From Paralichthys olivaceus (lineage: Eukaryota; Chordata; Actinopteri; Pleuronectiformes; Paralichthyidae): 64,000 nt of DNA. Positions within the stretch are counted from its first letter, which is position 1. Each line of letters opens with the position of its first letter. This document shows, in pieces, positions 3,209-46,611 of the stretch. The translations under genes and the position numbers were made by a program. The notes beneath the pieces were generated by a model. The model was not told the origin of the DNA. It saw only the letters and a program-made list of their open reading frames with translations, and searched no databases. Location of the stretch: assembly GCF_024713975.1 (NCBI RefSeq), contig NC_091104.1, forward strand, positions 15,767,580-15,831,579. The letters are read 5' to 3'.

Positions 3209-3212
3209 GACT

Positions 3213-3260
3213 TCATCTGCTGTTGAAGCTCACGTCTTTGAGGATGACCTGTTGCTTCAT
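3213..3260 (-). promoter_or_regulatory. upstream ORF in the zc2hc1c leader
   Basis: On the minus strand an ATG at 3260 opens a 15-codon frame that stops at 3213, only 4 bases before the zc2hc1c ATG at 3208. Such a close, non-overlapping uORF would favour reduced or reinitiation-dependent translation. Whether the leader includes it depends on the unmapped 5' exon. Confidence 0.4.
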
Positions 3261-4449: not shown

Positions 4450-5360
4450 ATGTCCACTGAACACCTCGTCTCGGTGGATTATGAAGTTTTTGGCAGAGTT
4501 CAGGGTGTTTTTTTCCGGAAATACACTCAAGTAAGTTTGACGAGCTAGCTTAGTCCTTCATCAGCACTTTGCATCCTCACTGATGAAGACTGACTTTGAG
4601 TTAAGATTTATTTTTGCTACTTATGTTCAATGTGTAATGTTTAGATTCTGTTTTACTAATATGTGTTTTCTTTGGGTTGTTCCAAGGATCGAATATCATA
4701 ATTAATTAATTAATGAATAATAATAGTACTTATCAAGAAATACAAAGCCAAACTAACTTATATCGATGCCTGTCGTAAAATTGTATATTTTTTAAAGCTT
4801 ATGCACAATAGCCTACGTTGAGGGGCGTCCTGATTTATGAAGTGATCATCGTTTACCTGCTCTTTTAATTATTTTAAAATCCACAAGCCTTTTAAAACAC
4901 CAGATTTTTTTAATGATAAATAACAAATGCTTATTTTGTATAATTTGATGACGTAATTATTGAACGCAGCAGCAATACTCAATACAGTGTTTGGTATTAA
5001 TAGTTTGGTGTCACCATTTATTAGGCAGTATTATTAGTCTGTCAAATAGCCACAAGACTTTCTGAACTGTATTTTTACTCCTTCCAAATCACACGTATCC
5101 AAGTCCAGCTTCGTTACCCATCATCACTCTGTTTCATTTTCCAGGCAGAGGGGAAGAAGCTTGGCCTGGTTGGATGGGTCCAAAACACAGACTCAGGAAC
5201 AGTTCAGGGGCAGTTACAAGGGCCCCGCAGCAAGGTGAACGAAATGCAAGAGTGGTTGAAATCCACCGGGAGCCCCAAGTCCCACATCAGCAAGGCGGAG
5301 TTCAAGAACGAGAAGACAGTTGACAGCCTAGATCACTCATCTTTTAACATAGTAAAATAA
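4450..5360 (+). CDS. acyp1: acylphosphatase-1 (two coding exons)
   Basis: Coding exons are 4450-4530 and 5145-5360, joined in phase 0 at consensus GTAAGT and TTTTCCAG sites. They give a 98-residue protein, the normal length for acylphosphatases. The family signature GRVQGVFFRKYTQ is present at about residues 15-27, including the Arg that binds the acylphosphate. GLVGWVQNT, with the catalytic Asn, follows at about 34-42. GTVQGQLQGP and the C-terminal FNIVK strand complete the ferredoxin-like fold. The enzyme hydrolyses the carboxyl-phosphate bond of acylphosphates such as 1,3-bisphosphoglycerate in the cytosol. The sequence is closer to the ACYP1 (common/erythrocyte) than the ACYP2 (muscle) form as I recall them. 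ACYP1 is also the isozyme adjacent to MLH3 and ZC2HC1C in mammals. Confidence 0.95.
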
Positions 5361-6800: not shown

Positions 6801-6906
6801 TACTGGACGTTAGGGGCTAACTGACAGTTAACGAGTCGTCTCCTTGTATCGTGTCGGTTTAGGTCGGTGGATAAACACAGCGAGATGACTGGACGTTACG
6901 GACGCT

Positions 6907-25788: not shown

Positions 25789-25794
25789 TATAAA
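25789..25794 (+). promoter_or_regulatory. TATA box of flvcr2 promoter A
   Basis: TATAAA lies 256 bases upstream of the ATG of exon 1a, with no splice acceptor required between them. It suggests that exon 1a has its own promoter, starting near 25820. GATA-like TTATC and a nuclear-receptor-like AGGTGACC lie just upstream. Confidence 0.5.
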
Positions 25795-26049
25795 CCCAGG
25801 GGATCGATCAGACTGCGCAAGTAGTGAATGAACTTGTGGAGCAGCAGGAGTTATCTCACTGATGCTGAGCGGAGGAACGAAGGATCCTGAAAGCTTGAAT
25901 TGTTTGTTCTTTCAACTTGGAACGACAGTGACAGGTGATCTGCGTTCATTTCTGCGCCATTTTTCTGCGTTTTTGGAGATTTTAAGAAAAGTGCTGTGGT
26001 GCTGGAGGAATTCTTTATCCTCCCAGTGCGCTTATAACCGAAGCAGACC

Positions 26050-26709
26050 ATGGGTGATAATACTGGCACCTCTCAGGACGGGAGCGCACGGGAAAAAGAG
26101 GCGCATGATGGTCCACCTTTGGGAGGCAGTGGACCAGAACCACAGGACGGGAGCGCACGGGACTCGAAGGTGCATGATGGTCTCCCCTTGAGCGGCAGGG
26201 GACCAGGACAAGGAGAGGACCACGTTGAGAGCGGCAACATCCCAAACGGCGACAGCTGCTCCGCGGCCACAACGCGTCTGTACAAGAGGCGCTGGTTGAT
26301 CGTGTTCCTGTTCAGCTCGTACTCCCTGAGCAACGCGTACCAATGGATCCAGTACGGCATCATCAGCAACATCATCATGAAGTTCTACAGTGTGGAAGCC
26401 TTCGCTGTAGACTGGCTGTCCATGGTCTTCATGCTCACCTACATCCCCTTCATCTTCCCGGTCACCTGGCTGTTGGATAAGAAAGGGCTGCGCGTCACGG
26501 CACTGTTGGCCAGCGCGCTCAACTGCGCCGGGACGTGGATCAAGGTGGCCAGTGCCAGTCCCGACCTGTTCGGCGTGACCATGCTCGGGCAGTTTGCCAG
26601 TTCCCTGGCTCAGGTCTTCATCCTCGGGATGCCCTCCCGCCTGGCGTCGGTGTGGTTCGGCGCGGACGAGGTTTCCACCGCCTGCTCCATTGGAGTTTTT
26701 GGGAATCAG
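26050..26709 (+). CDS. flvcr2: flvcr2 alternative first coding exon 1a
   Basis: The reading frame starts at ATG 26050 and gives 220 codons up to a phase-0 GTGAGT donor at 26710. The N-terminal 75 residues are hydrophilic and contain a duplicated 23-residue unit. Then come RLYKRRW and the first membrane segments of an MFS transporter: [17 protein letters not shown] (TM1), [20 protein letters not shown] (TM2), [17 protein letters not shown] (TM3) and [20 protein letters not shown] (TM4), ending [19 protein letters not shown]. It keeps the TM1 tryptophan (QWIQYG) linked to choline binding in FLVCR2 by published structures. It matches exon 1b in 86 of 146 positions by eye. No own downstream exons are found in 26710-33800. 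It is either an alternative first exon of flvcr2 (preferred) or an orphan duplicate. From memory it resembles human FLVCR2 exon 1 more than 1b does. Confidence 0.8.
26074..26211 (+). repeat. 69-bp in-frame tandem duplication in exon 1a
   Basis: Two copies, 26074-26142 and 26143-26211, each encode a 23-residue unit starting QDGSAR and containing HDG-PL-G-GPG. The cytoplasmic N-terminus is thereby lengthened without a frame change. The copies differ at several codons, so the event is not very recent. Confidence 0.8.
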
Positions 26710-27613
26710 GTGAGTGGATAAAGTGTCGCTGCAGTAAATCTCAATACTCTGATTTGATATCCTTTTATCCCAAAAAAGAAAATCCCACTGAAATGTTTTA
26801 GTGGTCACTTTTAATCACGTTAGAAGCCAGACACTTTTTCATGGCTGGATTAACCTCTCATGGGACAAGTGGGCTGGTTGCCAAAGGGCCCCAGCTGACC
26901 AACTCTCATCTCTCCACTCTGATGACAAGCAGTGGAACTGGGGCCTTTTAGGGGTCCTGCAGGTCCTGGAGCCCTGCAGTTGCCTGCTTGTCTGTATGAA
27001 GGGATTTCTGGAAAGGATCCTTGGAAGTCCTCAGACCTCAGGCCAAATATTTAAATTCAGACCAGTGTAAAAACAATAGTGATGGAAAACAGTCTAATAA
27101 TGATCCTTGACTCAATGTGTGAGAGGTGGGATACCCAGGACTTGAGTTATAGCCCAAGAGATATCCACAATCCTTATTTACCTCTGATAATCTGCAGTCT
27201 AAATGTCAATACACATGCTGCATTTATGTTGACTCCAAATAGGTGTATCCGTGTGTCTTTGGCTGTGCCACCTTTCATCACTGAATGTGTTTGCAGTCAT
27301 CTGAAGTGAGACTGAACACACAGGATACAAGAGCTCACATGTTCACATGTTGCATGAACAGATATGTACGTTTCATTGTCTGTATAGCGAGAGATAACGT
27401 GTGTGTCTGTGATACCTCTTCAGCACATTTTTCAGCGTAATCAGTGACCTTGTCAGGACCAATAGAAATCATGGACTAAAGCCTGGTCCTAATGAGGCAG
27501 AGCGTCATTTCTGAGCTCATGGTCAACATTAGGGTTAAGGTTTTGGTTAAGCTGTGCACAATGATGGAAGTCAATGCAAAGTCTTAATAATAATAAGGAT
27601 AGATATGCAAACC

Positions 27614-27654
27614 TGTGTGGGTGTGTGTGTGTGTGTGTGTGTGTCTGTGTGTGT

Positions 27655-27685
<31 letters not shown>

Positions 27686-27686
27686 C
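27614..27686 (+). repeat. GT microsatellite
   Basis: An interrupted (GT)n run with CT interruptions, about 73 bases long. Confidence 0.9.
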
Positions 27687-27859
27687 AGATGTGGTAGAGC
27701 TTATCTGTATATTCACAAGTGCTTTGCCTTGAAAAAGCTTATCAGGATTTTCAAAAAACTCCACATCTGATTTTAAGCCAACACACTGAGGCAGAAACTG
27801 GTCCATCCCGAAGACAAATTACCCAGACATCAGCCGAGCTATGTAGTATATGCAGTTGA

Positions 27860-28230
27860 ATGTTGTGAGGAGTGCATGGCACAGCACAGGCGACCCAGCT
27901 CCTCAGGTCCGGACTCAGCAGTCGACCCACATCTAAAGGACAAGGGACAATAATTTGAATACATGTCCATATGTTGGCCATGAAGACAGTTGGTTTGAAA
28001 GAGGAGTGAAGGAAGCCATCTATGATAAACATGAGAAACCATCTCTGACCAGAGGAAGTTTAGGACACATACAATACAGACTTGTCTTCCATCAGCAGAA
28101 CGTTTGACAACAGTTTTACATCTAAGGACACATGACTCAGGGGTGGCTGCTTCAATGACCCACAATAACTGAGAAACTCCACAGACATACAGACGAACAG
28201 CCAAATGTAGTTGTGTGATGTTGGCCCCAG
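27860..28230 (+). mobile_element. decayed retroelement fragment (WFERGVKEAI motif)
   Basis: A plus-strand frame around 27981-28070 reads EDSWFERGVKEAIYDK, followed by EKPSLTRG. This resembles a motif recurrent in fish retroelements with a C-terminal GIY-YIG-like nuclease. Stops occur downstream in the same frame. It is a fossil fragment, and the family assignment is from memory. Confidence 0.5.
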
Positions 28231-28330
28231 TGACTGATATATTAGCTATATTACCTAATTGGATTTTCATACTAAAGAATGATTACCCATGATTTTTCAG
28301 TTGGAGCTGGTCAAGGTGGAGCTATTTCTA

Positions 28331-28440
28331 TCAGTCAGTGATTCCCAACCCAGGGGTCAGGCCCTGGGTTGAAACCCAAGGGTCAATCCAAGAGGCAAAT
28401 GATCAATAGGGTATAAAAGAAGAAAATGAATATCCTAAAC
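28331..28440 (+). mobile_element. hAT-like MITE end fragment
   Basis: The segment contains GTGATTCCCAACCCAGGGGTC, the typical terminus of a widespread vertebrate hAT-derived element, followed by GGGTTGAAACCC. It is truncated. A related end, AGGTTGGTGACCACTGG, is at about 50140-50160 in an erg28 intron. Confidence 0.45.
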
Positions 28441-28639
28441 AAATTTGTATTATTTTTTGTTGTATTGTATTATAAATGCATGTAGAATCACATCAATAGA
28501 CTGAACTGTGATTTTTTCCATCTATTTTGGCATGTATGAAAACTTACATTTGGAAAAATCAAGCCAAGTTTAGTCATATTGCACACTTAGAAACAAGTGC
28601 AGTTAACCGAAGTGCTGTATGATTAAAAATAGACACAGT

Positions 28640-29140
28640 GTGAAATACAAGAAAATAATACATTTTATATCATAGACTAGTATAAATTAAGATAAAATAA
28701 ACCAGTAAATTGAATTATCAAGGTAATTTTAGTGGAGTAAAAGTTATAATATTTACCTCTGAAACTAAGACCAGTTTGCAAAATACAAGAAAAGAGTAAA
28801 ACAAAATAACATAGACTAGTTTAAAATAAAGTAAAATAAACCAGTAACTTGAGTTATCAGGTTAATTATAGTTACAATACTTACTTCTGAAATTAAATGA
28901 AGTAGAAGAAAGAAAAGTACAGTATTTAACCATGATGTATGATTAAAAAAATACAGAAAAAGAGTAAAATAAAGTGAATAAAATAAAAAATCGAAATGAA
29001 ATAAAATAACATAGACTAGTATAGAATTAAATCAAATCAAAACCAGTATCTTAAGTTACCGGGGTAATTGGTGTAGAAGTGAAAATATTGACCTCTGACA
29101 TTAAGTGAAGTAAAAAAGTACAGTACAGTATTTAACATGC
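28640..29140 (+). repeat. degenerate tandem array
   Basis: Three imperfect copies of an A-rich unit occur. Each has an ATAGACTAGT landmark (near 28673, 28812 and 29010) followed by AAACCAGTA and a TTACCTCTGA/TTGACCTCTGA-like landmark. Spacing is irregular (about 140 and 200 bases) because of insertions. No coding potential is seen. Confidence 0.6.
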
Positions 29141-29199
29141 AGTTTATTCATGTTACAAAAACTGTATCGACTTGTTTTCTCCAGTGACACTTGACTGAA

Positions 29200-29700
29200 T
29201 GTTTATTAAGTAGTGCTGCAAAGAACCTACAGAGGACAAGTTGTCCGTGTTTGTTTCGCTGGTGGAAAGTGCATGAGGGGAAATGACGTGTGGACCGAGT
29301 GTAGGCTCTCGCCATCTTCTGCTGGTGGACGGCAGTGATCCAGTTTAACTCCCAGACTGAGGCTGTGAGGTGACTGGGGGCGAGCTGCAGGTAAACACAC
29401 GGCTCTTCTCACTCGGTTAGATTGTGTGACACGTGTTTCCTGTTGTTTATTTGTAGCGCACTTGTTTACATGTCCTCGCTGTGAGTCCAGACCGCGAGAG
29501 CAGCGACGTGAGTTTGCGTTTGTCTGCTTTAATTCACGCTTTTATTTGCGCTGTTTTTAACGGAAGTAGCTGCCAACGAGGCGATCTGTGCCTGACAACT
29601 TCTGTACTTGTGCTTTACTGAACTACAGCAGAGACACACGCTTTGTCAGAGTCATTTCTTTACGCACACGTGAGATTACAGGACATTGGGTGTATCTGGG
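29200..29700 (+). promoter_or_regulatory. possible promoter B / non-coding first exon of flvcr2
   Basis: This segment is clearly richer in G+C and CpG than its neighbours. It has a donor-like GAGCTGCAG|GTAAAC at 29391. Exon 1b begins after a strong splice acceptor at 33880, so an upstream non-coding exon is required, and this is the best candidate region. A transcript is not demonstrated. Confidence 0.35.
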
Positions 29701-29799
29701 GTTTGTAGTTTAAACATAACGTCGGTGGTGACGGCTCTCCCTTTCTCCCTTCACTCCTTCCCGAGAGACGAGGGGCAGACAGCAACACCACACTTCATA

Positions 29800-30020
29800 G
29801 ACTGTATACAAACATACAGCCTGGACAAACTAAAAACATATATCTTTAGATAAAGCCTATACAAATATGAATCTTAAGATAAATATATATAGCATATATG
29901 AATAACAACTATGTATCTATAAAGATATAGCCTATACAAAGAATAAATATGGAAATAAAGATTTAGCCTATACAAATGACAAATAGGCATCTTCATATAT
30001 AGATTTAGCTGATACAAATA
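29800..30020 (+). repeat. degenerate short tandem repeats
   Basis: Imperfect repeats of an AT-rich unit containing AGCCTATACAAAT recur at about 29852, 29928, 29966 and (altered) 30005. No function is apparent. Confidence 0.5.
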
Positions 30021-30288
30021 ACAAACGTCATGTTCATAAACTTCCCACAAGTCATGCTGGTGTCTCTAATAACTTTCTTTCTAATATAGTCTGTATTTAT
30101 CGAGCACTTTTCAAAACTCAAGGTATAAAGTGCTTCACAAGGCAGCAAATTAACAGACAAGTCATAAAATTGTCAGACTTAAAAGGACTTTTTAAGTCAG
30201 ATTTAAGACGATTCAAAGGCATTTAAAACTCCAGTAAACTTAGGAAAGGCTGTCAGATAAAAGTTTCTCTTAAGGAGGGTCTTAGAAT

Positions 30289-31015
30289 ATGATCAGAATC
30301 ACTTTTATTGCCAGGTATGTGAACACACGAGGAATTTGACTCCGGTTTTACTTAGCTCTCTTACAAACAGTTAAGAAAACAAACAAACATAAAAAAGAAC
30401 AAATACAAGAAAAACAAAAACAAAAGCTAAGTACGCTAAATAGTTTGGTGCAATGGTGCATAGTGCATGGATGAAATGATAAATATACATATACAGTGTG
30501 CACAGTATATTGGTATGTACAGATATTCTACAGGAGATGTTACTGATATTTGAGTCCGATTTTAGCTGTTCAACACAGAGACAGCCTGAGGGAAAAAACT
30601 GTTCTTAAGTCTGGATGTTTTGGCCTACAGTGTTCTGTAGTGCCTTGCAGAGGGGAGAAGTTTAAACAGTTTGTGTCCAGGGTGTGATGGGTCTGCAGAG
30701 ATGTTACCTGCCTGTTTCCTGACTCTGGACAGGTACAGGTCCTGGTTGGAGGGCAGGCTGACACCAATAATTTTCTCTGCAGACGTCTTTTCCTGTTTTG
30801 TGGCCGATCCAAACCAAACAGTGATTGAAGAGCGGAGAACAGACTGAATGAAGGAAGACTAGAATTGTGTCAGGAGTTCCTTAGGCAGGTTGAGCTTCCT
30901 GAGCTGGCGCAGGAAGTACCACCTCTGCTGGGCCTTTTTGATGATTGAGATGATTGAGATGATAGAGTCAGTTGACCTGATTTCCACGATCTGCTCTCAG
31001 GCCCTGAGTTAAAAG
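30289..31015 (-). mobile_element. degenerate non-LTR-type interspersed repeat
   Basis: The segment starts ATCAGAATCACTTTTATTG followed by an ACACACGAGGAATTTGACTC line. It continues with AAACTGTTCTTAAGTCTGG, CCTGACTCTGGACAGG and GAGCTTCCTGAGCTGGCGC, then AGGAAGTACCACCTCTGCTG. These are recurrent parts of an abundant teleost repeat that I associate with LINE tails. Numerous stops show it is dead. Strand and class are uncertain. Confidence 0.5.
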
Positions 31016-31019
31016 TCTG

Positions 31020-32420
31020 GCGGCTGAGTTCTGTTAAGTTTGGATCAATATAAAAATAGGTTAAGTTGCAGTGACTCTAAACTAAAATGGCCTGAAATCG
31101 AAATGATCATTTTGTTCAGTATTGATGCCTTGATCAACACGTTTACTGAGGATTGTCCTAAGTATAACACAGTACTAATGAAGAAAAAACATTTCAGAGG
31201 AAAAATGGACAACATGCCCCAGTTTCCACTATAGTTGAATGTAAAAAGTGTATTTTATAACCCAGATGTTATCACCATCTCAGCATCAACACCACATATT
31301 TAACCTCTTCAGCACGTCAATAGGCTGTCAATCATTCAAACATGTCCTGACTTTATCCTTTTGTCACATCAGTCACTCAGTCCTCCTGTGTATGTTATCT
31401 TTAGAGACAGAGCTCACAGCTTTCTCTCTTAAACGTCCATCGAATATTATACATCAAATTTGTGTGGAAAAATGAAGATATTATGTAACGTAATGTAGCT
31501 TAAACTCCAGGAGAACTGATCTCATTTGATCATCACAGTGACTTTCCAACTATGTCAATGCTTCTTTTGTTACTACACAGTACGGAATGCAAGGCAGTGA
31601 TTGTTCCCTCAGATGAGTCAACTAATATTCCTGCCTGTACATCTTATATGTCAAAATTTGTATATATTATCAGCATATATATGTAGTTGTATATTTACCC
31701 ATGGCAGGAAACAGAAAGACAATTTATTATATTATTATTTAATATTTGTGTGTGGTGTGGTTAATGATCACAGTAGTGCAGGCCAGGCAGAACCTAACCA
31801 GGAAACATATGAAGTGTCCTGCAAGTAAAATGCTGCATAAATTACTTATTTCTGTTCTCCTAAAGATGGAGCACAGTGTATTCAAATCTACGACTCTCAC
31901 ACTGACTATATAATGTGGATGTGAATGCTTTAAATTGCTTAAATGCTCTATTTAGTGTTTATGCAACCAGCGTATTAATTGAACCATCGTCAGGGCTGCC
32001 TTTGTGGTAAAGCTTTAGACGGAAGATGTTATATAAGTGATTTTGCAGAAGTAAATCCAATTTATGAACCAGAAGCATAAACACTTAAATCTTCAGTCTT
32101 CAGACTGCAGTGTGCAGTGTGCAACACCCCCCCCCCTTCCTCCTAATAGCCACAGCATGAAAGCATTCAGCTAGTTTAATGGCTTTATTATAAATCATAA
32201 TTACATAAGTAATACACATTGATAAAATACTGTTACATTTTTAAATCTGTAGCACTATGGGTGTGGGCGATAAATGTATAATGCAGTAGATTTATTCATA
32301 TACTTTCTTGTAGTTGCTGCAAATACTGCACCTCACAGAAATCATTTGGGATGTATTTCTGCCAACCACAAGCATTTGAAACAGTAGTTTCACACTTGAA
32401 ATATAAGAAGTACAATGACG
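31020..32420. other. AT-rich flvcr2 intronic/intergenic sequence
   Basis: No gene, domain or clear repeat is recognised, apart from a poly-C run near 32127-32138. Confidence 0.4.
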
Positions 32421-32423
32421 CTC

Positions 32424-32600
32424 ATTAGAGCACACACCTCCGCCAAGGCCCAACAGTGTCCTCCTGAAACCACAATTAAATTCACTAGATCAGGATTTGT
32501 ATTAATTTTTATTTATTATTGAAACTACATGGACACATTACCAATTCAATTTTGGTACGGATCGAGGAAAATTCAGGAATATTTTTTTTATCACTTTCCT
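32424..32600 (-). repeat. percomorph dispersed repeat, copy 1 (partial)
   Basis: In reverse orientation it carries the landmark CACACCTCCGCCAAGGCCC at 32431-32451, followed by AACAGTGTCC and CACTAGATCAGGATTTG. The same family occurs elsewhere in this window, with a near full-length copy at 53582-53872. Confidence 0.6.
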
Positions 32601-33402
32601 TAGCCTTGAGAGTTTTCTTATTTTCTTCTTTATTCTGCTTAGTCATTAAAACATTTACACAATTCATTGCCTGTCCCTTCCCCACAATAAGCACATACAT
32701 ATGCAACATCAGTAATATCAACAGACCATCCTGGTCACTGGATCACAATTTGCTAACAGGAATATATTGTAGTATACATGTTTTTGCTGCATTCATTATT
32801 AATAGTTTCTTTTCATCATAATTAATCTCTTTGTAGATTTTGACATCTCCCAAAATAGATATCCAAACTAATTCCTTTTTGTAATATTTCAGATGTATAT
32901 TTATAAAAACATCTCCCACAATACCTCAAGTGTGTTTTCACTTCCAAAACATACAGTATATGCATGAGGTTGTCCAGTTTCATAAGTGATACAGATTGTT
33001 GGTCCACTGTTAATATTTCAATCTTTATTCCTATAAATTGATGGGATGGCATCATAACTTTGTAATGCAGCAGATTTATACTGTTCACAGACGTCGTTTG
33101 AGATTTATTTTTCGAACCACAAACAACTGCCTTCCACCTCTCTGCACTAACAGTTTGTCAATTGTCTCGTAAACTTGTTGTCTGTGCTGAGCAGCGGACT
33201 TTAGCTCCTGTTTACACAGGCAAGCGTGTGTGTGTCATGTGCCAATAGAGAACAAAATATCACATGATTAATGAGAGCAGGCCGTCGCGTGTTCAGTCCG
33301 TCAGGTATGTGAGTAAGTGATGGCAGGGATCATTGATTCCCAACACCGCTCATTATTTTTAAACTGCAACCCAGATCCACCTGAGCAATATATATATCAA
33401 CT

Positions 33403-33778
33403 TTAAAGGTACAGTGTGTAGAATTTTGTGATATCTAGTGTTGAAATTGCATGTTGCAGCTGAACACACCTCACCTCACCCTCTCCTTCCAAACATGAAA
33501 AAGAAACTGTGGCAGCCTTTAATTGTCATAAAAACTCAAAAGGTGTTTAGTTTGTCCAGTCTGGACTAATGTAAAAAAACATGGCAGCCTCCGTAGAGAG
33601 GGTTCCCTCAATGTAAATATAAAGTATTTAAATATAAAGGGTATTTTCTGGGGTAAAGAAAACTACAATTCATACAATTTAGATGAAAGGAACTAGTGAA
33701 AACATCATGAGGATTATTCTACATTAAATTTCTGCCAATAGTTCCCTTTCACCTAAATCATACACACTGGACCTTTAA
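33403..33778. mobile_element. piggyBac-like MITE flanked by TTAA
   Basis: The element is bounded by TTAA at 33403-33406 and 33775-33778. Terminal inverted repeats of about 20 bases adjoin them: AGGTACAGTGTGTAGAATTT on the left, and the right end reads AGGTCCAGTGTGTATGATTT on the minus strand. Length is 376 bases with no ORF. TTAA duplications are diagnostic of piggyBac-type transposition. It ends about 100 bases before the splice acceptor of flvcr2 exon 1b. Confidence 0.75.
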
Positions 33779-33924
33779 GCACAGCAGACAAACCTGTTTC
33801 ATGAAATACCAGCTTGGGTGGGTCAGGTGAACAAACACACCCACACACACACTCGGAGAAATATTTGCTCTTCCTTCCAGCTATTAAGTGCCACAGAAGA
33901 GTGAAGCATTTCAGTGGGAGCAAC

Positions 33925-35462
33925 ATGAGCGTTAGGGAAGATCTCCCTCACGAGTGGATGGACGAGGCCAGGGAACATGACTGGTCCCTGTCGAGAAGCA
34001 GAAAACTGTCACTGGGAGAGTTCAACCACCACCTGCCTCTGGGTGACAGCTTCGACACCCTGGAGACGGCCCTCCTGGACACTGCTCAGGTCTTCCCGCT
34101 CATGGAGACCAAGCTGTACAAGCGGCGCTGGGTCATGCTGATGGTCTTCTGTGCCTACTCCATGAGCAATGCCTTCATGTGGCTGCAGTATGGCATCATC
34201 AGCAACATCTTCATGCGCTTCTATGACATTGACTCCCTCGTCATCGACTGGCTCTCCATGATCTACTTCCTCACCTACATCCCCCTCATCCTGCCTGTCA
34301 TGTGGCTGCTCAACAACCGGGGCATCAGGGACGTGGTGGTGGTGGGGTCGGCCTTCAACTGCATCGGGGCTTGGATCAAGACGAGCACGGCGGACCCCAA
34401 CATGTTCGCCATGACTTTCTTTGGCCAGTTTGTGTGTTCAGTGGCCACAGTTTGCATCCTGGGCATCCCATCCAGACTGGCGTCCCTGTGGTTTGGACAG
34501 CAGGAAGTGTCCACTGCCTGTTCCATTGGCGTTCTTGGAAACCAGGTGTGTCTCTGCATGTACCTGCTGGACTCAGAGCATCTTATGTTGTATGTATTTA
34601 GTGTTCTGCAACCCTCCTTGTATTTGATCTGAATGGCATTGTGTTAAATAGAGTCAGGTACAGGTCACGTGTGCCTTGATGCGTGACTCAGTTCCTATCA
34701 GCAGGTTATAAATCACTCTCTCTGCCAGGGGGAGAAAACTTAGGGCTTCCAACAACAGCGAGAGGAGTCTTAGAGACAAGATGCTCACTCATTTGCAGAA
34801 CTAAGTACTTACACTGTTAGTTTCAGGGTTCCCCACAGACAGTAAGCATGTGGTGCATCCATAGACTGTATGGGGTGCATCGCAAGTTATTTTGTTTGTC
34901 AGCTGTGTATTGGTTTAAGCTCATAGCTTAAGGCACCTTGGGTGTGTGTGTTCAGTCCTGATGAGGTAAAACATAAGGTCCTGGTTAGTGGTCAGATGTG
35001 AATTGTGGTTAGGGATAAAGTTTTGGCTTGAATGTCCACATTGAGTGGAAGTCAACAAAAAGTCCTATGCAAATCTCTATACAAACCTATGCATTTCTCA
35101 GGTATCTGTACTTTTAAAGTATATTTATTTTCAGGTACTTTTACTTCACTACATACATCCGCAAATACCCATACTTTATACTCCACTACATTTATACAAT
35201 GTACTGCATTACATGTTCACATTTAAATTTTTTATAAGTAACTAATAACAAAAACAGCTGCACTCTCTGGTGAATAAAATCTAAACTGAACCTCAACCAT
35301 AGTAATGTACTTACCGACTGTTGCATTAGGATAGATATGTTGAATAGGCTGCACTCAGATAGTTTATTTAAAAGCAAGAGCTTACTTACTTAAACTCAAG
35401 TAGAAAGGTTCATGTGGTACTTTAACTTTTATTTGAGCACATTTTTGTCCATTTATATGTAC

Positions 35463-35540
<78 letters not shown>

Positions 35541-38500
35541 CTCCTAACCAGGGGGTTTGCGGGTGACTTGTACTGTTTGAATTGTCCACTTCTGAACAAG
35601 CTCCCACACTTTTTCAACATCACTAAAAAAATGAAAATGTAAAATTTGGCTTCATAATCCAGTTCACCTCTAAATGTTTCCTTCTAACAAGCCAATAAAA
35701 ACAGTCAGTGGATGCTGAGAAAGCACAACAATTCCTATTTAACTGGCTATATATGGCTCCCCTGTGATCCCACCACCATCTGCAACACGATGCATAAACA
35801 GAGATTGCTGAAGGACATCCAACCCCTCTGATGTTCTTTTAACTCTGAAGCCAAACAGTTTTTCTCTCTGCATTTGAAGTGTGTCCTCTCTCACCTGCGC
35901 CAGGCCAAACACTGCATGCCGGTCATTGTCATGCATGTTCTGATTGTGTGTTTTAGTCCCGCTCCCCGCTGCTGAACACAAAAGGACACATTGTTGTTGA
36001 TGTTTTTCTCGCTCACCATGACTTTATTCCTTTTGGCTCGGATCTCCTCGACCTGATACTTCCACGTTTTCAGGATGAAGTAGTTCACATATTCTCCCTT
36101 TGGGTGTTTTAAATATGGTTAGTGGTAACAAAAAGTAGGCGGGATTTCCATGAAGGCCTGCAAAGCTTTGAAGATCAAAGAGTTTAACAGTTTTGGCGCT
36201 AAAATAACTTCATAAGAGAGGTCATCCTTGATTTAGATGTGTGAATATGCTTTTTTCTATTTTTAACGGGTTATCAGGGCTCCATCTTCTTATCTAAGAT
36301 GCATAAATAGTTGCACAGTGTGTTTTCTTTGCTGTGAACACAGCAGATGTGTTACAGTGATTAAACAAACATGACTCTCCCGTTATTCTTTGGTAAAAAT
36401 CATTTAAAGCTTTCTCGAGCAAAATGACCAAGAGGTAGTTTAAGGACTGCTTAAGTAGCTGATCTTTGCTAACTTAAACTCAATAAAGTGTTAACAGTGT
36501 CTAAGGTAAGGTTGTAGACGAGAGGGTAACGGGTGCAGATCCATGGGGATTCTAACCTTCTCGTTGGATTGAAGAGGTCTGATGCACAGTGTCTGTTATT
36601 ATTGCTCACTTCAGACACTTATCACTGGATTGTTCCTCCTCTTTTTGCAATTTTCCTTCTCTCACCTCTCCCCTAGAGCCAAGGGACCTCAGCTGGTGTG
36701 CCCCCTGGGATGTTCTTGGGGCTGTAGAAAGCTGAGGAAATAGACACTACTTGTGTTGTATTCACATTTGGAAAGTTTAGCAAACCTCCTCCCCTTCCAC
36801 CTAATTTCTCATAAAGTCACAGTAAAATTTCTGTCGGACCCTGAGAGTGGGATGGGGTATGTTGGGGGGTTGTCAGGAGCTGAAAAGTTGGACATACATT
36901 GTAGCTTCATGTTGATTAGTCGTCTTTGCCCATGTCAGAAGATAACATAGTCTACCTACCAAAACTTTAACCCTCTGTAAAAACAAAGAAAGTAATAAAA
37001 TATTTCAACTAGTAAGTAGAGTGCATACCTGCCAAAAAACACAAAATTGCTCACACTCATAGATATCTGTCTCCAAAAATGTACCTGATTTTTTTCATCA
37101 AGATCCATGATCCCGGGAAATCACTGAAAATGTCAAAAAAACGTAAAAAAAACCATTCTGGAACCACCTGCCTTATCAGGATTCACAGCAAATTTGAATG
37201 GGTGCTTCCCTGACCCATACCACATCCTTCCCCCAAGTTCCATGGTAATCTGTTTAGCAGTTTTGTCATAATCCTGCTAACTAACGCTGATGAAAATATT
37301 TTGTTACCTTTGGATGGAACCAGTTAGCCGAGGATAGCTCTCTGTATTCAGTCTCCTCTGCTTTAACCTTATGAGAGGGGTGTCATTCTTCTCTTCAAAT
37401 CTCAGCAAGAACATGAAGGGGTGCATTTTGTAAACTCTCTGACATATGTAAAACTAAGCAATATACAGTATGCATGTACTTCTTATGTGTTTACAATAGC
37501 TGGTATACCATCAGACAGATGTCGAGGATTCAAATGTCAGTTAGATGTGAATGTTTGCTGCATCAGATCATTTTAGAAGTGGACACTAACTTTTCTAACA
37601 GAGTCAAACACTCCTTTACCTTTCTCTTTTTTATTTCAACCTACTTTTACTACTGTTTTTAATTAATTGTACGTATCTGTGTATGTGTGCGTATGTCTAA
37701 TTGTCAGCTGAAGGTACAGGGTCATTATTTTAAATTTAGCGCTTCTCGCCTGCAGATGGGTATCGCCATCGGGTTCCTGATCCCGCCTATCCTCGTGCCT
37801 AATGTGGACGACATGGATGAGCTGGCGCACTACATCAGAATCATGTTCTACATCAGTGCCGGAGTTGCCACCCTCATCTTTGTCCTGGTGGTGATCGGTA
37901 AGTCTTCGAGGGAAGATGATGATGCTGCTGCTCTTGTCCCCGGGCTCACAGAGTGGGTATATAAGAGCTGTCAGGGTTCTTCACTCACTCACTCATGCAG
38001 TAATAGCCCACTGCCAGTCCCCTCCAATGTCAGACAGCTCCCACAGTCATGGTTGTGAAAATACATGACGCAGATAGAGTTATCTTGACAGTTTGTGGTT
38101 TCCAGTGGTCGAGACCATGACAAAGCTGCTACCTCACCTCCCTTTGTCCCTCACAGTAATGCTTGGTTATAGCACCGATTTATTTCTAGAATAAGTTCCT
38201 CAACATTAAATTTCATTGTTTGACACAGTTTCCTTCATCCTTTCATGGTCGAGCCTCTTATCTCATCGCTGGGCTCTGTGGGCAGCTCTGCTGGAAGGCT
38301 GAATCTCCCTGAGCCGTGCTTTCTCCCATGAGCTCTGCAGCGTTACAGTCCTCTAGATGAGCAGCTGCAGTAATTGCTGTAATTGTCCAACTTCTGAAGA
38401 GATGTGTTCGGACACCCAGGGAGTCAGGAGTGTTTAATGAAATCATCCTCTCGCCCCCTCAGCTCTGTGAAATCCTCCTTTTCACCTCTGTGAAGGACTA

Positions 38501-41500
38501 AAAGTCGCTGACAGTCAGAGGAACATGGAGAAACTTCACAGTTTATTTCTGGAAGATGCTCAGTGGCTCACAAAAAAAAGATACTTGATCTTCAGTCGCA
38601 GCTTTGACCCTGTGTGAGGACACATGTTGGTGAGTTTAGGTTTCTCTCTGTGATCAGTGGAATCATTTTAATGGGGGTCAGATGCTTTTTTAATCTGAAC
38701 TTTTCACTTTGTGGATTTAAATAACCCACAAATGGATCCACAGTGAGAAAAAATGGATTCCTTAAATAATCTTTGCCAATAAACCCACAATAAACCCAGC
38801 ACTGACCATAGATATATAAATATATAAAGATGGATGACAGGATAGCTCCCAAAAGTGAAGCCAAAGCATCTCGATCGCCACCTGGCGACTGTCTGCAGTA
38901 ACAATCTCACCTCATCCATGTTAGTGGATGGGACATGGACCAAAGTATCTGCTTTTCCTCCTGAGCCATAAACTCGGGATCACCGCCAGATACTGTTTAT
39001 CAAGGCTGTGATGACAACATTAATTATATCAGATAAGATAAGACGTGGAAGATGTGGTAAAATTCTATTCAGAGACCACATTACTCCTAATTGGTTTATA
39101 AGGTTATAAAGTTATTATGAAATTAAAGCTGATAAAATTAGGCCTCCTGTAATGTAAAAGCACACACACACAAACACACACACTATTTCACCTGGCTTCT
39201 CTCCCTCAGATTATAATGTCCCACATCCTAAATATTCACATAACCTCCTGAAATCTGTGTTTCCCAGTGTTTCAGGAGAGACCAGAGATTCCTCCCACAC
39301 AGGCCCAGGCTCAGGCCCGGAACGTGGACCCAGACGAGTACTCGTACACAGCTTCCATCTTGAGGCTGCTGTGCAACAAGCCCTTCATGCTGCTGGTGGT
39401 CACCTACGGTAAGTCTCCCCCTGCTTCATTTGACTAATGATGATTTGAATTCACATTCTGTGCTCTCTAGAGCTCCAGATGACGATTGAAGTTACAATGA
39501 TATTATGACAGTACTAGTCAGTACTCTGTAGGGTCATATAAAGGTCACATAAAGGGAGAAAGTCCACGTCAGATTAGTCTTTATATAATTGTCTCTTCAT
39601 TATATTGGTGACTGTATACATGTACAGGAATATTCAGACTATTGACTTCATTCTGAATAATACGTTATTTAGATTATGATGTTTACATCGGTTACTGAGT
39701 ATATTCCATTCATATTCCTGTTTGTATGTTACAGAGCATAAATCCCTTTAGTTTATACTTAAACAAAGGGCGTGTATCACGAAGTGCCTGACCAGACTCG
39801 GATGTTGTTGCATTATTGAGGTGAAAGGTAACAAAGAGTAGAAGCTGTCACAGACATATTCGGTTTGCAGATATGAGGATGTGTCATCATTACTGACTTC
39901 TCTACTGCACTGCCCATGTGTAGCCGTGATCTAAAGGTCACTCTGAGATGTCAAATTGTGCTCAAAGGTTACTGTGTAATGATGATAATGTTATTGACTC
40001 ACAGTTAGAAGAATATTCCTCATCAAGTCAGATTATTGGGATTTTAACATAATTTTGTGTTTATAGGGATGTTTGCACCAAGAAGTGCTGATTGCCATGT
40101 GCTGCAGTATAAACTTAAATGCTGCTAGCTGAAGTAATGACACAGTGGCTGCTTCAGACTGGACGTGTGAGGGTGTCTGTGGTATTTTTAGAAGGGTCCC
40201 ATCTGGACCTTCTCCTTCCCTACAGATCTGTCAGAGTAGAGACTTTTTCCATTTGTTGTCTGCAGGCCTGAACGTCGGCTGCTTCTATGCTGTCTCCACC
40301 TTGTTGAACCGGATGATCATCGAACACTATCCTGTAAGAAAACCTGCTGACTTATGTCCTTATTTCCAACCAGATGAGCTTTGATCCTGCTTCTCTTTCC
40401 ACATTTCCACACGTTTGTGTGAATCACTTTGACACTAGCAATAAACCTGCCGAGCACATGACCCTGACACAGATTACAGGATTCTCTCACACTGTTTGTT
40501 TTGACTGAAAGCTCCCAGGACAAGATAACTGCAGAATGTAAGGTGTCTTATATGGCCTGAAAAAACGGAGATGTTTCTACCGTTGTTTTAATCTCAGGGT
40601 GAAGAGGTGAATGCTGGGAGGATCGGTCTGACCATTGTCATTGCCGGCATGGTGGGGTCCCTCATTTGTGGCATTTGGCTGGACAAGACTAAAACCTACA
40701 AGTAAGACAAACATGGTTTTATTACTATTCATCTGTGCATTTTGAAAAGCAAAAGCATCACAAAAATGAGTTGACGTTATTTCTCCAGTCACTAAGAAGG
40801 GACCAAGACTCAGCCAAACTTTCATTGTAGTTTCTCTTCTCTTGTTTTGGTGTCATACAAATGATTATTATTACAAAAAATCCTCTCAGATTCCCGACAT
40901 GCCATCAGGATGCTTTCGCTGTCAAAGCAGAAATTAGGCCCAGATTCATTTTGTTGATCCTCTTGCTCCAATTGTCCCATGTTGGGATAGACAGTGAAAG
41001 GACCATGTTATATTAACAATGTTTTGCAGCAATTATTTACGCGTGGTTGCACAAAAGACTTCACAGGAGTAAGCCTGTTGATGGCAGATGGCCCCGGGGT
41101 CTTTAGTGACTCAGGAGTGTTGATAGTCAGGCACCATCCTCAATGAGCAATACGTCAGCTGCATGAAGTGAGATGAATAGTGAGGACGTTTATCTGCTCT
41201 CAAAAAAAAATTAAAATACCACTAATAAAATTTTATTAGCAGCAAATACTGAGCATAGTTTTTTATTATTATTCAATTATTATTATTGTCACTTAGGCTT
41301 GACACACTACGTGCATTTAATGCATGCAGAGGAAGTGATGCATGTAAAAGGAAAGAGAGGAGGGAAGAGTCATGTGACACTCTTCAGTTTAACCCTGCTG
41401 TTTGCACAGATGAGTTTTTCTTCTCTTCATGGATTTCAACACTAAATGATTTTGCTTACAAACCTTTAAGAATAAAAGTATTGATTTATCATTATTTTAC

Positions 41501-44500
41501 ATATAGACTGAGGAATGTCAGGAGATATTTCCCTGAAGTAGCCAAATGGCTTTTATTTAAATCTATACAGTAAAAACAAAAAACCTGTCGTTAAATTGTT
41601 CTGCAGGATTTCAGTGTCTAATCAGCCTGGACAGGAATGTAGGAATCGAGAGCCCTGTCACAATATTCAGATTCTTAAATATGTTAAAGACAAATCAGAT
41701 TAAAATTAACCCTTAGATGATTTTGAGACTTTATGGTCAAAATAGTATTTTGCTGTATACCACACAAACCATGTTGGCTGTGTGTAAAAGTTGTTGCTCA
41801 AATAAATTGATCCACATCCATCCCCTCTCTTTTCAGACAGACCACCCTGCTTGTGTATCTCCTCTCGCTGATCGGCATGCTGGTCTACGCCTTCACCCTC
41901 AACCTGGGTCACCTGTGGGTGGTGTTTATCACGGCCGGAGTTTTAGGGTAGGTAACCATTAAAGAACGGAGGCCACCAAGGTCTTAAACATCACAGCCGG
42001 GGTTTGAAATCAACACCTGACAACCTTCAAGATGAGGGTAAAAATTAACTGGCATGATTTGGGTTATTTAAAGAAAAACTTTGTGGCGTGTAGCTATTCA
42101 GAATTTCTGGTATCAATAACAACTCCAAAATAATACAAATCAAAGCTGCTGTATTTAAATCAAATATCTCTGTATTATTATTGTTCATTTTTCTTTTCAG
42201 TTGCTGATCAGTTAGGGACCTGTGAAATGAAAACAGTTTGTCTCTGTGTTTATGTGACTTATGAACCTGGATCACTGCAGTACAACATTATTCTGTTCAT
42301 AACAGTATTTGAGCTTCACACCGGAAAATGGCCGCTGTGTGAATATGAGCTGTGTTTCAATTTGGGGCTGCACCTTACGGTCTACGGCCCATGAAGACCA
42401 CCTAGGCCTCGTAGACCACGAAGGCCAACCAGCATCACCAGCTCATCCTGCCCATGTGTACAATTAGTTGTGGAGTTGAGTTGAGGGTAATACTCAAGTG
42501 TTGGGCGTCTCATCGCTTGTCGGCACCATTACCTTTTTGAAAAGTCCTTAGTTACTGAGGTTGGGTCAGGAAGGATCCGCCAGTTCGAGCCTTGTCACTC
42601 GGGGATGAAAGGATGCAGTTGTTGGCCACATTTGAAGGACACTTCAAAATGAGACACTCTAGTTGCTGTGACGCAATCAATCTTCAAATGCAGACTCTGA
42701 AGGAAGCAGCCCCTGAATTGAGACACAGCTGTAGTCTTATATCTGGAAGTTGTTATTTAAAGCTTTGACTGTTAATGATCCCTCAGAGCTGTTCAGTTTT
42801 GTTTGTAGCTAAAAAGCTTTTTAGGCAAAGTTAACTTTGAGTTGACTCAGTCTTTTAATGTCTTTTCAAGCCTGAGGTGATAATGGATCACATGTATCAC
42901 GTGAGATCTTCAGGTCTGAGCACCTCCAAAGCTTTTGTGCTCATAATGTCTGCGTGTCGTTCACGTTCTCTGCGTTTCTCTCAACAAACTCCTCAGACCA
43001 CGTGCCATGTCCTTAAAATTATTGCTATTTATGGTAAGCTGATTATGCCCATAACTGGTTTCCATAGTGATTCCTTTGTCTGGTTGAAACCCAGACAGGA
43101 TTTATTATAGAGCAATATGTACTTGCACTACTTTCACACTCACTGGGCTCTTTTCTATTCCATGGTGTGGTTGAACACTCAGTGATGTTAGAGAATAAAT
43201 AACTGCAGATCACACACTTTTGTTTTTGCTGTTAACTTGACCGCTGTTGTGTGTTCGCAGCTTTTTCATGACGGGTTATCTGCCTCTGGGCTTCGAGTTT
43301 GCCGTAGAGCTCACCTACCCTGAATCAGAGGGAACCTCGTCAGGGCTCCTCAACTGTTCTGCTCAGGTTCCTAATTTTTCAACATCTGTATAAAGTAACA
43401 CAGTCTAACTTTGGTTTGTGTCTGTACTGTACTTATTTCTTTTTAAAACTAATTTCAGATCTTTGGAATCATTTTCACCATCTCCCAAGGGAAGATTCTC
43501 GATAAATGGGGCACTTTTGCAGGAAACATCTTTCTATGTATTTTCCTACTAATAGGATCAGTGATGACAGGTGAGATCAACTGCTTCTCTGTTTCCTCTG
43601 AAGATTTATCCTCTTAACAGTCCTGGCAACACAGATCAACTCTCCAAACAACAGGGAACACTGAACTCATGTTATTAAAAACATTCATGCATGTAATGTT
43701 AAAGTCAACTTTGAACACAACTTGTATTTCAGCCCTGAGTTATTCGTGCAGGAAGTCATAGCTTTCGTGGGATAAAGTCTCCCTCTAGTGGATGGATGAA
43801 TAATCACATAGTGTTTAAGACAAATTATAATGGCACACAGTAGCGCACATATATCCACGAAGACCCATCAGTCCCCTTGTGAAACCACATTCAAATTCCC
43901 TGGATTTTTATTTGGGTCTGCTCCAAATTGTACACACTCATAAATATCAAGATTTTGTCATCAAGATCTATAAATGATTCTCTGAGAAATGAATGAAAAC
44001 ACTGGAAAACACCCCGTCTCACAATGTTAAAGTAAGTGACATAAATTACTGGATCAACCCCCTGATCTGGATGGGCACCAGAATTTAATGGGTTCTTACT
44101 TGGGTCATACCGGAGCCCTCCATAAAATTAATGAAAATCGGTTGAGTAGTTTTTGCATAATCTTGCTTTCTAACAAAAAACAAATGTAAGCAGTGGTATA
44201 GTCTCCTTGGCCACAGTAAAAATCATTGGTTAGTTTTGAGTATCATACAGCAGAAAATAGTTTTTATAGAAATCACATGATTGCATTAAGGTTAACTTAA
44301 AACTCTCTGATGCACCTAACTGAGAGTTGCATAGGTGACATCAGGTCGTGGCTAGAAACCCCTGTGACAATTTTATATGGAAATGGACACCTTAACTTGT
44401 CTCTTGGGTTTCTGGACGTAACTTTGAGGTAATACATGACGAGTATCTTCAAGGTGCCTGCTTGGAAAAGTTTTCTGTGGCCTGTTCCTAAAATACATTG

Positions 44501-46611
44501 AAACACAATTCATTTCTGATCATAGACTGTATTTAAGGAAATAAACTCAGCTTCTGGGTGTGAAAGGTTTTACTGATGCGAAAGTGCTTTAAAGTGCATG
44601 GCTTTTGTTGATTTAATAGATGAACAAAATTTTCCTCATTGTTCTTGCCAACATGATCCAGCTCTTCAGTTTAACAGAAAGTCCCCCAACGCCGTAACGT
44701 TTCCCTCTCGTCTATGTGCATCACAGGACTCATCAAGGCTGACCTCCGACGGCAGAAGGCCAACCTGCAGGCCGAGATGCAGACAGTGAGCGTGAGTACA
44801 TCTGTGTGTGCTACGTGAAGTCAGAGACGGGATCTTCACATCCCTGTGGTGAGGGGGATGTGTTGGGTACCACGCTGGCTCTGGGCTGAAGTCACTCTGC
44901 TGACTGCCTCCTACATTCCTCACACTGCAGTGCACGGCTGCAGGCATAGACACCAGACAACACTGGGGCTGCTCTGCTGGAACCGTTTCTGTCTCTGAAC
45001 TCTCTGAAATGCTCATCACAGAAAACACAGCTCTGCTTGTGTGTGATGGCTCTTCAACTCAAACCTACAGCATGTTTTCAAACTTCTGCTATAACCACCT
45101 GGTTTCAGGTTGATGCTTGGAAAATTGCTCTTTTTTTACTTTTTTCACATTGGTGCTGTTGACAGCTCTCAAACAAACCTGTAACCAATAATAATCCTTT
45201 TTACCAATCAGTGTGAAAATATATTAATAACTCACCACAGGAAGAAATATGAAGCAGGTCATTTTGAGAACCATCTAAAACAAGATCAAATTCACTGAAA
45301 CAAAAAATGTGGCCTTTGAATTTTCGAATGAATGAAGGACACATTAATTGCACAAAACTTCACATTGCGTGTCTTCACACTTGTTGGCTATTTGACAAGC
45401 ATGGGGATTTCTTGCTCTTTTTACTTTTTTCTTTCTGTTTGTAATATTTCAGTTCTGACTAGAATGACACTCAGTCGAGTGCACACCTCCGCCAAGGCCC
45501 AACAGTCCCCTTGAATTTAATCAAGCTGCACCAAGTTCCATGAATGAATCACTGGGAAATCTGTGAAAATGTCAAAAAAAAAATCTTGCAAATTGTTGAT
45601 TTTACAAAAAAAATCCTCGATCCACACCTTTGTCTGGATCAAGCCAAATTGTAACACTTTTTAACAAGTAACAATACAAACGCAGCTAAAAACTAATTAA
45701 TAATATACTTTCTTTGTTTTATTAATGAGCCAGTTCTGTTAAATTGTTAGAAAAAAAAAGAACCAACAGTGACATGACTATTGTAATAACTGGATATTAC
45801 CAACATGTATTATATATTATATAATACACAGCACTCCATATGTCCCTCACTCAGTGGCTCTTAGGTTAGCAGGCAGGTAGCAGCAGTATTAGGTGGCTGT
45901 TAGTTTGGTGGAGGCAGACTCATGGTGGTGGTGTGTGGAGGTATAGGAAGAGAAACCCCCTCAAGTCCCCTCAGAGGTGTGACCCCCAAGCTATTGTTCC
46001 AGCCTACAGGGTCCGAGGTATCGGCGCTGGACTATGGGGCCACAGCGTATAGCGGCCCCTGGCAACTACATGAAAACACAGCCTCACAAAAACAAAAACA
46101 CACACCTGCAAAGGTACAAACACACACACACACACATATAATGGAATTTTGATAATTTATAAACCGTATCTTCAATGTAAAAATGCCTCTGAAACTTTCA
46201 GCACTTCACAAAACAAAGTGTGCCAGACCACACTGTGTTGTTTCATTAATTCTTTCCAAAGGTTAAGACTTATTTAATAAAGACTTATATGTAAGAAGTA
46301 TTTATTTAATCAACTTTTTAAATGATCTATGTGATTAACTCACAGTACTAACTGGTAGGTTCTAGTACACGAAGGATCATATTGATGTGAGAGATGAGAA
46401 GTTAATTGTTTAACACTAAATGTAAAGAATGATTAATGCTGATGTTCTTGTGTCGTTCTGATGTGCTGACAATTTGTTTGTTTTGATGAAATACGGAACT
46501 ATCTCTTTTCTCGTCTGTGGTTGTTTCTTTCCTCGTCCTTCACAGAAAATGACAGCTGATGTGGAAGAAGACGTTTCTCCACCTGAAGTCCTGAAGCAGA
46601 TGAAGTTATGA
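33925..46611 (+). CDS. flvcr2: FLVCR2 choline/haem transporter, exon 1b plus exons 2-10 (511 aa)
   Basis: Coding exons: 33925-34545 (1b), 37756-37897, 39268-39408, 40266-40333, 40598-40701, 41837-41947, 43261-43366, 43459-43570, 44727-44791, 46546-46611. All phases agree and the total is 1536 nt. Twelve membrane segments of an MFS protein are expected. Signatures include [16 protein letters not shown] and [11 protein letters not shown] in exon 1b, [11 protein letters not shown] (exon 2), [11 protein letters not shown] (exon 4), [12 protein letters not shown] (exon 5), [16 protein letters not shown] (exon 6), [15 protein letters not shown] (exon 7) and [11 protein letters not shown] (exon 9). 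FLVCR2 imports choline at the blood-brain barrier and was earlier linked to haem. Human mutations cause Fowler vasculopathy. It is placed between jdp2 and ttll5 as in mammals. The exon 1b ATG follows an acceptor (CTTCCTTCCAG) at 33880, so a non-coding 5' exon lies upstream. Confidence 0.94.
35100..35410 (+). repeat. interspersed repeat with TACTTTTACTTCACTAC motif
   Basis: Sequences such as GGTACTTTTACTTCACTAC and ACTCCACTACATTTATAC belong to a common teleost repeat. The copy is decayed and its class is not assigned. Confidence 0.45.
35466..35539 (+). repeat. GT microsatellite, uninterrupted
   Basis: A pure (GT)n run of about 74 bases in an flvcr2 intron. Length is likely polymorphic. Confidence 0.95.
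37030..37290 (-). repeat. percomorph dispersed repeat, copy 2 (reversed)
   Basis: Reverse-oriented similarity is shown by CTCATAGATATCTGT, TTTTTCATCAAGATCCATGA and GGGTGCTTCCCTGACCCATA. The same blocks recur in other copies. It sits in the intron before exon 2. Confidence 0.55.
42346..42731. mobile_element. MITE with about 25-bp terminal inverted repeats
   Basis: The left end, GAGCTGTGTTTCAATTTGGG, then GCTGC, matches the reverse complement of the right end (CAGCTGTGTCTCAATTCAGG, then GGCTGC). Length is about 386 bases with no ORF. Such ends are typical of hAT-related MITEs in fish. The target duplication is not clear. Confidence 0.65.
43835..44185 (-). repeat. percomorph dispersed repeat, copy 3 (reversed)
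   Basis: Landmarks include CCATCAGTCCCCTTGTG, ACACACTCATAAATATC and GATTTTGTCATCAAGATC, then GGGTTCTTACTTGGGTCATA. These correspond in order to the reverse complement of the copy at 53582-53872. Confidence 0.55.
45465..45660 (-). repeat. percomorph dispersed repeat, copy 4 (reversed)
   Basis: GAGTGCACACCTCCGCCAAG at 45478-45497 starts a reversed, truncated copy that continues with CAACAGTCCCCTTGAATTTA. Its outer end, AGAATGACACTCAG, is present at 45461-45474. Confidence 0.6.

Follow-up and report, generated by a model that had tools for sequence, protein, structure and literature searches.

Two homologous first coding exons in the flvcr2 gene of Paralichthys olivaceus probably provide alternative N-terminal halves of one membrane transporter

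FLVCR2 is a choline and ethanolamine uniporter of the major facilitator superfamily and the carrier behind Fowler syndrome, and there has been dispute over whether it carries haem or choline (PMC11168923). The choline pocket of human FLVCR2 comprises Ser99, Trp102, Gln191, Asn222, Ile226, Phe324, Tyr325 and Gln447 (PMC13160678). The pocket residues listed in PMC11168923 are fully conserved among mammalian homologues, and the Q191A mutation abolishes the transport of both choline and ethanolamine by human FLVCR2 (PMC11168923). The subject of this report is a flvcr2 gene of the flounder Paralichthys olivaceus, located in a 64,000-nucleotide stretch of contig C12 (NC_091104.1; C12:15767580-15831579), hereafter the window. 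The gene carries two homologous first coding exons, 1a and 1b. Judging from the DNA, these are probably working, alternative and mutually exclusive starts of a single gene.

Several described systems derive more than one protein from a gene in a comparable manner. The FLVCR1b product of the related FLVCR1 gene starts downstream of exon 1. FLVCR1 resembles the flounder gene in belonging to the same family and in yielding two products, and both the FLVCR1a and FLVCR1b transcripts occur in zebrafish; FLVCR1b is a shorter isoform (PMC10998817), whereas both predicted flvcr2 products are full length and differ by homologous halves. Exons 4A and 4B of SLC39A14 (ZIP14) are alternatives that each cover the first pair of membrane segments and confer different uptake kinetics (PMC10287928). 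They are internal, mutually exclusive exons covering a smaller region, whereas the flvcr2 pair are first exons. Tandem duplicated exon substitution events produce proteins that are identical except for one homologous region and are mostly ancient; 236 such events, 40 of them N-terminal, are recorded in human, and the main text of the human survey contains no occurrence of FLVCR. Exons 1a and 1b resemble this class in being homologous, adjacent in one gene and identical in 3′ phase, and are distinct from it in that the changed ligand residue is critical for transport. The variable first exons of the clustered protocadherins and of Dscam join one common tail. The protocadherin clusters and the 5′ cassettes of chelicerate Dscam thus share variable first coding exons with the flounder locus (PMC4835542); they encode adhesion proteins, whereas flvcr2 has just two first exons, in a membrane transporter. 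Among the literature matches listed, which consist of titles and abstract openings and lie outside bioRxiv and most subscription journals, none describes a flvcr2 with two alternative first exons. The new element is a predicted first-exon swap that exchanges transmembrane segments TM1-TM4 plus the beginning of TM5 and alters, among other residues, a substrate contact critical for transport. To our knowledge, alternative first exons that exchange half of the membrane domain of a transporter, and do so in two old copies, are unusual.

The architecture of the locus is directly visible (Table 1). An earlier note on this DNA had described two open first exons about 59% identical, and both frames are indeed open, with 86 of 147 residues identical (58.5%) over the segment common to FLVCR proteins; BLASTP of one exon against the other gives 204 bits (E 1e-71). 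The same note had both exons stopping after GNQ in phase 0 at a GT donor and exon 2 opening in phase 0 at position 37756. All of this is found: the donors are CAG/GTGAGT for 1a and CAG/GTGTGT for 1b, and AG precedes exon 2. Against Protein Data Bank chains, exon 1a scores 218 bits with FLVCR2 (8vzn) and 203 bits with FLVCR1; exon 1b matches three FLVCR2 chains at 195-199 bits, the best at 199 bits compared with 184 bits for FLVCR1. The isoforms were modelled as exon 1a or 1b joined to exons 2-9, the 3′ edge of exon 9 being arbitrary and the last exon excluded, and this modelled part comprises 502 residues for the 1a isoform and 489 for the 1b isoform. The 1b model gives a gapless alignment of 423 residues with FLVCR2 chain 8qcx (656 bits) and with other FLVCR2 chains at 659 and 650 bits, compared with 590 bits for FLVCR1. 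By this whole-protein match to FLVCR2 over FLVCR1 the predicted gene is FLVCR2 (SLC49A2), differing from the described transporter in its two alternative first coding exons, of which 1b carries Thr in place of Q191.

Neither first exon appears to possess downstream exons of its own. The genome (588 Mb, 25 contigs) was searched by ranking best candidates only, a procedure that a strongly diverged tail could escape. Exon 1a as query gives six matches at E <=0.001, five of them strong: 1a and 1b in the window, two exons on contig C19 at ~11.28 Mb and one on C19 at ~19.18 Mb. Exon 1b gives five matches, all at these same five sites. The exon 2 protein finds three sites at E <=0.001, and a 282-residue tail query finds 21 exon matches within three loci, namely eight in the window, seven at C19 11.29 Mb and six at C19 19.18 Mb, with a single match per exon inside the window. 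The third of these loci is flvcr1-like: its exon 1 shares 76% of residues with human FLVCR1, compared with 62% with human FLVCR2. No separate tail for 1a or 1b was found among the best candidates scored across the whole genome. The count is thus five strong first exons and three tails. The earlier observation that no second set of exons 2-10 is visible holds genome-wide, and separate exons downstream of 1a, the finding that would have told against it, are rejected together with any for 1b on the exon 2 and tail searches. The spacing of the two exons (~7.9 kb) and their 41% residue difference could point to separate genes, one of them with downstream exons elsewhere; given the confinement of exon 2 and tail matches to three loci, this has hardly any probability, within the limits of a search that a very diverged tail could escape. 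The sixth match to exon 1a (C9:23759013-23759195) is weak, with 36% identity and one internal TGA, and may be an exon of a more distant transporter.

The C19 locus at 11.28-11.29 Mb repeats the order of the window, 1a′-1b′-2, and exons 2-8 are likewise ordered, with lengths equal in C12 and C19 (142, 141, 68, 104, 111, 106 and 112 nucleotides). Over 147 residues 1a and 1a′ are 78.9% identical, 1b and 1b′ 81.6%, and 1a′ and 1b′ 63.9%; the C12 and C19 tails are 84% identical over 275 residues. In a tree of eight sequences 1b groups with 1b′ (100/100) and 1a with 1a′ (90.5/86; approximate likelihood ratio test, SH-aLRT, and ultrafast bootstrap, UFBoot). Five test trees were drawn up, of which H2, H4 and H5 are identical when unrooted, leaving three for comparison. 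Independent duplications in the C12 and C19 loci (H3) are rejected (log-likelihood difference 62.1, approximately unbiased (AU) test p 0.00025). The trees are compatible with an exon duplication either before or after the split from mammals: the best tree, H1, sets 1a and 1b together, separate from the mammalian FLVCR2 chains (p-AU 0.83), and the H2 tree is also accepted (p-AU 0.17). From the pairing of 1a with 1a′ and 1b with 1b′, together with the rejection of independent duplications, it follows on this phylogenetic evidence that exon 1 was duplicated before the two loci separated. The event would have been ancient and would have copied either just exon 1 or a longer segment that later lost its other exons. 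The loci themselves are probably a pair from the teleost whole-genome duplication. A FOS-like exon lies at 16765-17454 of the window, 8.6 kb upstream of exon 1a; apart from itself, it matches best at C19 11.50 and 11.51 Mb in the genome, ~0.2 Mb from the C19 flvcr2. The synteny behind this interpretation comes from one neighbour family, and a synonymous divergence of 1.7 or at saturation fits an old separation.

Both pairs of first exons are under purifying selection. Separate ratios of nonsynonymous to synonymous substitution rates (dN/dS, omega) for 1a and 1b, as called for in the earlier note, were obtained with our own GY94 fit and with NG86. Since the synonymous rate of 1b was unbounded in GY94, the nonsynonymous rate and a test against omega=1 were used for that pair. 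Under GY94, the 1a/1a′ pair has an omega of 0.061 and the tails one of 0.025, and for 1b/1b′ synonymous change is saturated with a dN of 0.107. Omega=1 is rejected for 1a, 1b and the tails, twice the log-likelihood difference being 82, 151 and 288, respectively. NG86 gives 0.24 for 1a, 0.066 for 1b and 0.071 for the tails; the value for 1a exceeds that of GY94, probably because the high third-position GC content of the 1a pair (86 and 93%) depresses the NG86 dS. Tandem copies commonly arise and are then lost, and one of the exons could in principle be an unused relic of a tandem gene copy stripped of its other exons and open by chance. A relic would not be expected to retain 79-82% protein identity, a donor and the phase at both loci, yet both exons are open and constrained in the two loci despite high or saturated synonymous divergence, and a relic origin is very unlikely. 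Where the earlier note had looked to close relatives for a disrupted exon 1a, the comparison made was with the C19 locus of the same genome, in which 1a′ and 1b′ are both intact. Among the 68 sites that do not vary across the six non-1b sequences, 16 are changed in at least one 1b exon, seven of them alike in both; for the 1a pair the equivalent figures are 10 of 62, with four alike in both. The notable feature of 1b is the identity of its changed sites rather than their rate.

Of the pocket residues, 99, 102, 191 and 222 (human FLVCR2 numbering) are encoded by exon 1 and the remainder by the tail, where Ile226, Phe324, Tyr325 and Gln447 are intact. Exons 1a and 1a′ retain Trp102, Gln191 and Asn222. 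Exons 1b and 1b′ retain Trp102 and Asn222 and carry Thr at position 191 and Met at position 101, beside the Trp; both positions are Gln in the remaining six sequences compared. At position 131 the 1b pair has Phe or Leu (Phe in 1b), and the six others have Met. This position corresponds to Met154 of FLVCR1, the C-alpha of which was the reference for the orientation of the ligand (PMC11168923). At position 99, 1a′ has Ser, and 1a, 1b, 1b′ and mouse have Ala. Thus the exons do differ within the half that contributes to the substrate cavity, as had been claimed, by Q191T, Q101M and M131F/L in 1b. Since Thr occupies position 191 and Q191A abolishes transport, isoform 1b may have an altered cargo. 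Without the conserved Gln, which touches the hydroxyl of the substrate, the 1b half would most likely give a product changed in cargo or affinity; weighing the residues involved, we put such a change in isoform 1b at about an even chance. One flvcr2 gene may in this manner encode two transporters with different cargo. In its full form, in which 1a gives a choline/ethanolamine carrier and 1b a carrier of another cargo through the swapped N-terminal membrane half, the pair having been kept in two copies roughly since the teleost genome duplication, the proposal is tentative and falls slightly short of an even chance.

Two other readings concern cargo alone and overlap with the use of both first exons argued for here. 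Both isoforms could transport equally, the duplication serving only expression control through two promoters and the pocket changes being tolerated. Trp102, Asn222 and the tail pocket residues are unchanged, and known duplicated-exon pairs, mostly tissue specific, keep 80.6% of the predicted ligand residues of the swapped region (PMC9741552). Set against this, 1b and 1b′ share the non-conservative changes at Q101 and Q191, two sites constant in the other six sequences, and equal transport is possible though rather unlikely. Isoform 1b could instead transport nothing itself and act as a partner or decoy, for instance by regulating isoform 1a, which would account for the loss of the transport-critical Gln with the remaining family sequence kept. 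Trp102 and the gate residue N110 are retained in 1b, as in a working transporter, and a decoy is improbable. A natural FLVCR2 with the same tail and Thr at the substrate Gln would offer a ready test of the selectivity of this site. If the proposal of two transporters is correct, a fish flvcr2 knockout at one first exon leaves the second product, which affects the reading of fish mutants.

With both first exons in use, a transcript starting at or before 1a would join 1a to exon 2 and encode a conventional FLVCR2 in which the choline/ethanolamine site is complete. A transcript reaching 1b through its own leader would join 1b to exon 2 and encode the same C-terminal half behind a different N-terminal half. 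Inclusion of both shifts the frame, so that one first exon per message is expected; reading on from 1a into 1b runs into a stop 7 (C12) or 24 (C19) codons past the junction, an early end that fits mutual exclusion, yet is frequent by chance. Separate promoters for 1a and 1b are plausible. The observed/expected CpG ratio is 0.75 at 1a and 0.86 at 1a′, compared with 0.39 at 1b, 0.58 at 1b′ and 0.45 for the whole window. The TATA box formerly assigned to 1a is in part upheld: the TATAA 17 nucleotides upstream of the ATG is rejected, since transcription would start beyond the ATG, and the TATAAA further upstream (Table 1) is a better placed candidate with a counterpart at -187 in 1a′, the two promoter regions aligning poorly. 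Splice sites were scored with weights that approximate vertebrate frequencies. For 1b the earlier note had proposed a preceding acceptor and a separate leader exon. The acceptor-like site is present, as is one of 10.9 bits 31 nucleotides before the ATG of 1b′, and 1.0% of the 3967 AGs in the window score >=10 bits; a similar site also precedes 1a (9.9 bits), with weaker candidates before 1a′ (7.7 and 7.4 bits), and exon 1a may have a leader exon as well. The proposed 1b leader itself did not emerge from the comparison of the C12 and C19 loci. A dispersed repeat at 33400-33793 ends 88 nucleotides upstream of the 1b acceptor-like site, and has relatives at C19:11281500-11281826, C19:11285450-11285803 and C19:~11301856-11302200.

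Several points weigh against two working isoforms with distinct cargo. The case for two isoforms, and hence the use of both exons in RNA, is made here from genomic DNA, which also leaves some room for a relic. Retention holds across two loci of one species rather than across species. Comparison of the C12 and C19 introns gave no convincing leader exon or conserved promoter: a match at 28640-28730 is out of place (E 4e-4), one at 38856-38944 also occurs elsewhere on C19, and a few others have E >0.05. The donor of 1b is the weaker one in both loci (9.8 compared with 12.8 bits for 1a in C12, 4.9 compared with 12.6 in C19), and the N-terminal tails preceding TM1 are poorly conserved. Exon 1b has changed only somewhat faster than 1a at otherwise invariant sites, by a small margin. 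The loss of choline transport in Q191A is not transferable to 1b, as Thr differs from Ala, and a single ligand-residue change is within the range for known duplicated-exon pairs (PMC9741552).

Table 1. Features of the flvcr2 gene and its C19 partner (window positions unless a contig is named)
Feature	Position	Strand	Remarks
Candidate 1a TATA box (TATAAA)	25789..25794	+	261 nt upstream of ATG
Stretch after acceptor-like site	26027..26049	+	9.9 bits, 23 nt before 1a ATG
Exon 1a, coding part	26050..26709	+	open, 220 codons; N-terminus, TM1-TM4, TM5 start
Likely 5′ end of exon 1b	33881..33924	+	acceptor-like site 11.3 bits, 44 nt before ATG
Exon 1b, coding part	33925..34545	+	open, 207 codons; homologous to 1a
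Shared exon 2	37756..37897	+	phase 0 start after AG; length equal in C19 partner
Shared exon 3	39268..39408	+	modelled; tail search match
Shared exon 4	40266..40333	+	modelled; contains F324/Y325 pair
Shared exon 5	40598..40701	+	modelled; tail search match
Shared exon 6	41837..41947	+	modelled; tail search match
Shared exon 7	43261..43366	+	modelled; contains Q447
Shared exon 8	43459..43570	+	modelled; tail search match
Shared exon 9	44727..44789	+	modelled; 3′ boundary arbitrary
Exon 1a′	C19 11282995-11283588		intact
Exon 1b′	C19 11286507-11287160		intact

Among the shared exons of the window, the exon 7 donor (43366) and the exon 8 acceptor (43459) score 1.2 and -0.6 bits, and their C19 counterparts 8.4 and 7.5 bits. 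The upstream neighbour at 16765-17454 is presumably FOS-like, a name given from its leucine-zipper appearance and without a Pfam match. Its relatives at C19:11502686-11503366 and C19:11511338-11512018 are on opposite strands, ~8 kb apart, and are 58% and 44% identical to it. A comparison of open reading frames between the 64-kb window and a 140-kb stretch of C19 revealed no further gene in common. Further neighbours identified by Pfam are a zf-C2HC gene at 1964-3229 (minus strand), an acylphosphatase at 5025-5357 and a MutL-type mismatch repair gene at 6889-9501, and the order of the neighbours in the window presumably resembles that of human 14q24.3.

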